This document shows positions 6,221 to 6,953 of a stretch of 64,000 bases of DNA, in pieces. Both the position numbers and the translations under genes were made by a program. Each line of letters begins with the position of its first letter. The stretch's first letter is position 1. Where the stretch lies: positions 434,001 to 498,000 of the forward strand of contig NZ_FXAK01000010.1 of the NCBI RefSeq assembly GCF_900177515.1, given 5' to 3'. The notes below the pieces were generated by a model. That model searched no databases. It saw nothing but the letters and a program-made list of their open reading frames with translations, and was not told the DNA's origin. The DNA is from Azospirillum oryzae (lineage in GTDB: Bacteria; Pseudomonadota; Alphaproteobacteria; Azospirillales; Azospirillaceae).

Positions 6221-6252
6221 GACTCGGCCGGACAATGAGTCGCGGCCGAGTC
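6221..6252. promoter_or_regulatory. GANTC-tipped inverted repeat in the ccrM leader
   Basis: GACTCGGCCG (6221-6230) and CGGCCGAGTC (6243-6252) are exact reverse complements around a 12-bp centre that contains another GANTC site (6237-6241). All three GANTC sites lie 23-54 bp upstream of the ccrM start codon; a fourth is at 6330-6334 in rnhB. In Caulobacter, GANTC methylation in the ccrM promoter region affects its transcription, so this may be an autoregulatory element. The regulatory role is inference. Confidence 0.6.
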
Positions 6253-6287
6253 GCCGTCAACAGCTTTCTTTGCCAAGTGACGGCGGG

Positions 6288-6953
6288 TCAGCCGCTTAGT
6301 GCCTTTTGGCGTTTCACTGGTGCAAAACTGACTCGGTGATGCGGCGTGACACCATGGCGGGTCAGCGCTTCCAGATGCTCGGGTGTTGGATAGCCGGCGT
6401 TTCGGTCCCATCCATAGTGTGGATACAGCACCGACAACCGCAACATCTCGCTGTCGCGCGCCACTTTGGCGAGAATAGAGGCGGCGGCGATGGACTGGCT
6501 GCGGCTGTCGCCCTTGACGACCGCCACCCGCTCGCACGCGATGTCGGGGGTGAATTTGCCGTCCACCAGCGCCGCGTCGGGCGGAGCGCCGGGCAGCGCC
6601 AGATAGGCCCGTTTCATCGCCAGCAGCGTCGCCTTGTGGATGTTCAGCTCGTCGATCTCGGCGGCCGAGGCCTCGGCGATGGCAAAGGCAAGAGCATGCG
6701 CCCGGATCGCCGGCTCGATCTCCTCGCGCAGGCGGCGGGTGACCGCCTTGCTGTCGTCGATCTGGGCGGCGATCTCCGGCGGCAGGCCTTCGGGCGCCAA
6801 GACCACGGCGGCGGCGACCACCGGGCCGCAAAGCGGGCCGCGCCCGACCTCGTCGATGCCGCAGACGCGGCGGCCGGGGCCGAATCCCGCCTCCAGCGAC
6901 AGGTCGGGCCGCTGCCGGGGAGCGGCTGCTTTGCGGGGCGCTTTGGCAGGCAT
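6288..6953 (-). CDS. rnhB: Ribonuclease HII
   Basis: 221 aa from ATG 6953. It removes ribonucleotides and RNA primers from DNA-RNA hybrids. The catalytic block [20 protein letters not shown], then [30 protein letters not shown] with the third acidic residue, and [20 protein letters not shown] are all diagnostic of RNase HII. The N-terminal Lys/Pro/Ala-rich 25 residues are a common alphaproteobacterial extension. Its stop is 89 bp before the ccrM start on the same strand; rnhB-ccrM adjacency suggests possible co-transcription, though the ccrM leader looks regulatory. Confidence 0.96.

Follow-up and report, generated by a model that had tools for sequence, protein, structure and literature searches.

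GANTC sites in the predicted core promoter of the methyltransferase gene ccrM in Azospirillum oryzae and other Alphaproteobacteria

The ccrM locus and its GANTC sites

In Alphaproteobacteria, CcrM, which methylates GANTC, has a key role in regulating the cell cycle, and to our knowledge the determinants of ccrM expression outside Caulobacter and the Rhizobiales are poorly known. In the 64-kb stretch of the Azospirillum oryzae genome analysed here (hereafter the window), ccrM occupies positions 5117–6198 of the reverse strand and encodes a predicted GANTC-specific adenine methyltransferase, with an N6_N4_Mtase domain (PF01555, E 2e-66) and a C-terminal RAMA domain (PF18755, E 2e-14), both scoring above cut-off. 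The product falls below the equivalog cut-off of the NCBIfam CcrM model (621 versus 830 bits; E 4e-187), which was built for the Caulobacter type, and the shortfall bears on that narrow model rather than on the family. By its domains the product is a CcrM-subfamily methyltransferase that probably methylates GANTC in A. oryzae; a literature search found no Azospirillum methylome paper. The upstream gene, rnhB (6288–7046, reverse strand; the coordinate 7046 is a mechanical ORF start), encodes ribonuclease HII (PF01351, E 4e-41). Elsewhere in the window are two tRNA genes in tandem (2730–2883, reverse strand) and a cobalamin riboswitch (29566–29789, forward strand; 119 bits).

Four GANTC sites, beginning at 6221, 6237, 6248 and 6330, lie where the first-pass annotation had recorded them. 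Their assignment as a group to the rnhB–ccrM gap needs correction: the site at 6330 belongs to rnhB, whose end is at 6288, and three (6221, 6237 and 6248) are left in the gap. The random expectation, put initially at 0.4–0.5 sites per 114 bp, is instead 0.17, GANTC being rarer in the window: 97 sites are observed against 235 expected from dinucleotide shuffles, a depletion of ∼2.4-fold that fits, as expected, selection against sites outside useful places. For a fixed 114-bp stretch, four or more sites have a Poisson probability of 3e-5, and the tightest three-site and four-site clusters of the window are those upstream of ccrM. The clustering by itself is only suggestive, because the window offers 64 kb of places to look and the scan-wide chance of such a cluster is 5–7%; the case rests on conservation. 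A chance gathering of sites in an intergenic gap, which that scan-wide figure might allow, is refuted by the positional conservation described below, both in close relatives and across families, and is given practically no credence here.

A further pair of GANTC sites, likewise 11 bp apart (GAGTCGCGGCTGAATC), occurs at 7664–7679, flanked by a gene of SEC-C type and one for a cold-shock protein; inspection by eye found no −35/−10 register matching that of ccrM at this pair.

Predicted promoter and its conservation in Azospirillaceae

On the ccrM strand, to which all promoter elements given here belong (reverse strand of the window), the gap reads TTGACG-GC-GACTC-GGCCGC-GACTC-ATTGT-CCGGCC-GAGTC, within which TTGACG-N17-CATTGT is predicted to be a sigma70-type promoter. 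The putative −35 hexamer TTGACG (6255–6260) and −10 hexamer CATTGT (6232–6237) enclose a 17-bp spacer, with one GACTC site at −27 to −23 (6248–6252) and another at −16 to −12 (6237–6241) that overlaps the −10, its last C being position −12, the first base of the hexamer. Derived from the −10 spacing, the predicted transcription start lies at ∼6225, the first base of a third GANTC (6221–6225; approximately +1 to +5 of the predicted transcript), which would leave a leader of ∼27 nt. Sites at −27, −16 and ∼+1 all fall within ∼40 bp of the predicted sigma70-type start, the arrangement by which GcrA-dependent promoters are recognised. A simple promoter scan of the window returned no sigma70 site at ccrM, because the −10 matches the consensus in just three of six bases.

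Alignment of the rnhB–ccrM gap in relatives, proposed as a check when the cluster was first noticed, bears the sites out, with GANTC positions kept in 44–47 of 48 ccrM upstream regions, nearly all of them from Azospirillaceae. In 47/48, the −35 (TTGAC or ATGAC) stands at a constant distance and is accompanied by the two GANTC sites of the spacer and by the −10; in 44/48, another GANTC (GAGTC or GATTC) follows no more than 25 bp downstream of the −16 site. A. brasilense Sp7, a laboratory strain, shares this layout. Across the 47 relatives, the free base of the −16 site is C in 25, A in 19, T in two and G in one, with GA and TC fixed, the pattern to be expected if selection acts on the methylase site itself. 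An additional GACTC-N4-GACTC pair upstream of the −35 is intact in 14/48 relatives and absent from the focal clade, where it has degraded; a probable remnant in A. oryzae, GACCC gccgt CACTT (6275–6289, reverse strand), has its GA overlapping the rnhB stop codon. One of the records with the same promoter ahead of an alphaproteobacterial CcrM is titled Mycobacterium sp. KBS0706 (L061) and looks misnamed.

Within the 7.67-Mb A. oryzae genome, the pattern TTGACN14GANTCANNNT has a single exact match, ahead of ccrM, and its reversed control none. With one mismatch allowed there are 24 matches versus eight in the control. A wider regulon in this genome was considered and rejected, the exact layout being unique to ccrM and the one-mismatch matches being mostly single sites that lack the two-site arrangement.

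The fourth GANTC (6330–6334) corresponds to rnhB codons 238–239 (CGA GTC), inside a run of rare codons at the 3′ end of the gene (CAC CGA GTC AGT TTT GCA CCA; 6318–6338, reverse strand). These codons, 237–243, are nearly invariant across Azospirillum, a codon-level conservation beyond the demands of the protein; CACCGAGTC is found at the rnhB 3′ end in 40/48 Azospirillaceae and near relatives, and TTTGCACCA also occurs there in L059, L060 and L064. A possible explanation is an overlapping DNA element within rnhB, ∼95–115 bp upstream of the predicted ccrM start.

As first described, the gap also contains a perfect 10-bp inverted repeat, GACTCGGCCG (6221–6230) and CGGCCGAGTC (6243–6252), spanning 6221–6252 and tipped by the GANTC sites at 6221 and 6248. 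The first-pass annotation had envisaged an mRNA hairpin immediately ahead of the start codon, and as an RNA hairpin or attenuator controlling ccrM translation the repeat could claim a predicted fold that is stable (z −4.85; outer stem of 9 bp) and one compensatory pair in L017/L018. Among 42 three-site relatives, however, the repeat is perfect in just 15 (13 focal-clade members and one sister pair of genomes) and imperfect or lost in 27, most relatives that fall outside the focal clade have a fold z of approximately zero or above, and an Rfam scan gave no match at the repeat. The upstream arm lies within the −35/−10 spacer and precedes the predicted start at ∼6225, so that a hairpin would be possible solely in read-through RNA from rnhB. 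A structured RNA leader would call for a conserved, covarying structure inside the transcript, and the repeat does not present one; control through the RNA is consequently very unlikely, and the repeat is best regarded as incidental, a by-product of GANTC sites that face each other and are flanked by GC-rich sequence.

Distribution across the class and relation to GcrA

Beyond Azospirillaceae, the arrangement was followed in 134 alphaproteobacterial genomes, evenly drawn at about one per family, of which 96 encode CcrM. Among 92 ccrM upstream regions, a GANTC lies exactly 19 bp from the start of TTGAC, the −16 register, in 38, and a second, softer peak at 8–10 bp (43 counts) corresponds to the −27 site. 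The combination TTGAC.{1,6}GANTC is present in 53/92 regions, where shuffles give 0.5; the strict two-site form is present in 29/92, where they give none. In the 38 promoters, anchored solely on TTGAC and GANTC, position −11 is A and position −7 is T without exception, which shows the register to be a genuine promoter register. Searched through all 134 genomes, TTGACN3GANTCN6GANTC gives 23 matches, 18 of them directly ahead of ccrM, and its reversed pattern none; TTGACN14GANTCANNNT gives 108 matches, 40 of which lie within 180 bp ahead of ccrM (positions compared by hand), leaving 68 elsewhere versus 33 genome-wide for the reversed control.

These counts bear on a reading in which the GANTC bases are kept as a sigma70-preferred extended −10 of sorts and methylation is incidental. 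The rigidity of the −16 position, and the restriction of its free base to C or A throughout the 38 class promoters, would suit such a preference. It would not account for the −27 site, which has no sigma contact and whose position differs by a few bases from family to family, still as GANTC, nor for additional GANTC sites upstream of the −35 and near +1, nor for the approximately threefold enrichment of GANTC over the 300 bp upstream of ccrM (310 versus 108); a general preference would also hardly be expected to leave the strict two-site layout nearly confined to ccrM. This reading is regarded as improbable.

The strict layout occurs in 38 of the 92 sampled families with ccrM, and the others lack it. 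In 80 named loci, picked by similarity to the query and so not an even sample, 40 carry it, from Rhodospirillales, Sphingomonadales, Rhodobacterales, Micavibrio-type and unplaced lineages; it was seen in none of the nine named Hyphomicrobiales ccrM loci. The layout thus recurs in many alphaproteobacterial families, some of them without detectable GcrA.

GcrA, a sigma70 cofactor, binds m6A GANTC and activates transcription (PMC3667746, PMC7987155), and mutation of GANTC cripples GcrA-dependent promoters (PMC3667746). The A. oryzae genome encodes gcrA (G000:C5:1195754-1196089; PF07750, E 4e-45 as protein), as does the genus, making a GcrA–sigma70 promoter plausible for ccrM here; a second, weak GcrA-like match lies at G000:C7:26140-26382 (PF07750, E 2e-5). 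A 2021 study restricted to GcrA-bearing genomes placed ccrM among the predicted core targets of GcrA, with high probability in many of the 13 orders considered; it used GANTC-type motifs between −200 and +100 and ignored the position of the site (PMC7987155). That study reports loss of this GANTC signal from ccrM in Caulobacterales, with the consequence that the nearest experimental model has a different promoter; in the passages of its main text consulted there is no report of the −35/−10 register, the −16 site or persistence in genomes without GcrA (PMC7987155).

It is conceivable that the sites serve GcrA alone, GcrA–sigma70 binding the methylated spacer and activating ccrM in a positive loop, with methylation not acting directly on polymerase. 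The presence of gcrA in A. oryzae and its genus, the biochemistry of GcrA and the predicted targeting of ccrM across orders (PMC3667746, PMC7987155) make this a serious contender, although one that we would not favour. Against it, the strict layout is present in 10/16 ccrM genomes without detectable GcrA versus 28/76 with it (Fisher P 0.09), that is, it is not confined to GcrA-bearing genomes, and there is no sign that it depends on GcrA. GcrA was undetectable in these 16 of the 92 sampled ccrM genomes with the Pfam model, with a permissive repeat of that search and with a profile of 20 diverse GcrA proteins (positive controls 1e-40 to 1e-51), which disposes of a detection artefact; G049 was counted as GcrA-positive on a sub-threshold match alone. 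The draft assemblies are 90–100% complete, so a gene may be hidden in single cases, hardly in all 16. The ten genomes with the layout but no detectable GcrA fail to group together on the CcrM tree, requiring six changes, at least three of which are forced by well-supported branches of an otherwise poorly resolved tree. Retention of the layout in these genomes calls into question GcrA as the sole reader of GANTC promoters.

Methylation-responsive control of ccrM

The interpretation that we favour, with a probability of roughly 0.7, is that the GANTC cluster forms the core promoter of ccrM and would make it methylation-sensing and autoregulatory. Sequence and conservation support the layout of the promoter and its association with ccrM; that the sites are methylated, and that their methylation state alters transcription, we infer. 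The original proposal that the methylase marks its own control region is well supported to the extent that all three gap sites lie in, or at the start of, a conserved promoter, their methylation being probable.

CcrM would methylate GANTC sites inside its own promoter, and RNA polymerase, probably with the sigma70 cofactor GcrA in A. oryzae, would initiate at a rate set by methylation of the −16 and −27 sites, the spacer placing the mark at the point of action of sigma70 region 2.4/3.0 and of any cofactor that binds the spacer. Passage of the replication fork would leave the sites hemimethylated and alter ccrM expression, and newly made CcrM would remethylate them and reset the promoter, tying supply of the enzyme to replication. 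Feedback of this kind, in which fully methylated and hemimethylated states couple ccrM transcription to replication, is the likeliest function.

As to its sign, we lean slightly towards a promoter that is on when hemimethylated and off when fully methylated, by analogy with Caulobacter ccrM, because a methylase that supplies itself needs negative feedback and because the layout appears to outlive GcrA. The opposite sign, GcrA-driven activation by methylated DNA, has appreciable but lesser odds. More speculatively, and rather doubtfully, the arrangement may represent an ancestral ccrM homeostat in much of Alphaproteobacteria, in which RNA polymerase–sigma70 senses m6A at −16 and −27 without GcrA, with GcrA later joining or taking over in some lineages and the Rhizobiales and Caulobacter swapping to CtrA control.

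Comparison with known promoters places the layout between familiar types. Caulobacter starts with GANTC between the −35 and −10 constitute a class of timed promoters (PMC4287350), and ctrA P1, mipZ and podJ of Caulobacter, among others, are likewise sigma70-type promoters with CcrM sites between or near the two hexamers. In the layout described here, by contrast, it is ccrM itself that would be driven, with a rigid site at −16 to −12 and two sites stacked in the spacer, and, unlike the GcrA/sigma70 promoters of Caulobacter, this layout is also kept by genomes in which GcrA is not detectable. The GANTC sites of Caulobacter ccrM lie in the leader and not in the spacer. The Caulobacter crescentus ccrM promoter nevertheless also has two such sites, and is reported to be active from hemimethylated DNA and dependent on that state (PMC2217572, PMC10073500); it is activated by CtrA (PMC2217572), whereas no CtrA box was found at A. 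oryzae ccrM. CtrA control of ccrM was rejected here, as the window has no TTAA-N7-TTAA box with one mismatch or fewer, and in the class sample a CtrA-like box and the GANTC core never occur together (0/38 versus 6/54 promoters without the core). Control by DnaA was likewise rejected, the one candidate box (6418–6426, one mismatch, inside rnhB) being no more than expected by chance. CfrBI systems involve another type of methylase and another site, in a restriction–modification context with no tie to replication. Promoters of the CfrBI type do resemble that of ccrM in carrying the methylase's own target in the control region, as the title of the CfrBI paper cited in PMC3874152 indicates, a functional analogy only.

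The present result accords with the 2021 prediction and adds to it the exact register, its near-uniqueness to ccrM and its persistence without GcrA; a search of open-access papers found no report of these, including the fixed −16 position. From the rigid grammar TTGAC-N14-GANTCA-N3-T at ccrM, transcription starts and the adenines targeted can be predicted for dozens of families, and the grammar provides a clean way to ask whether RNA polymerase responds directly to m6A in the extended −10.

Two more two-site promoters of the ccrM type, both distant from ccrM, were observed in a single class genome that has GcrA (G180:C1:889429-889457 and 933247-933275).
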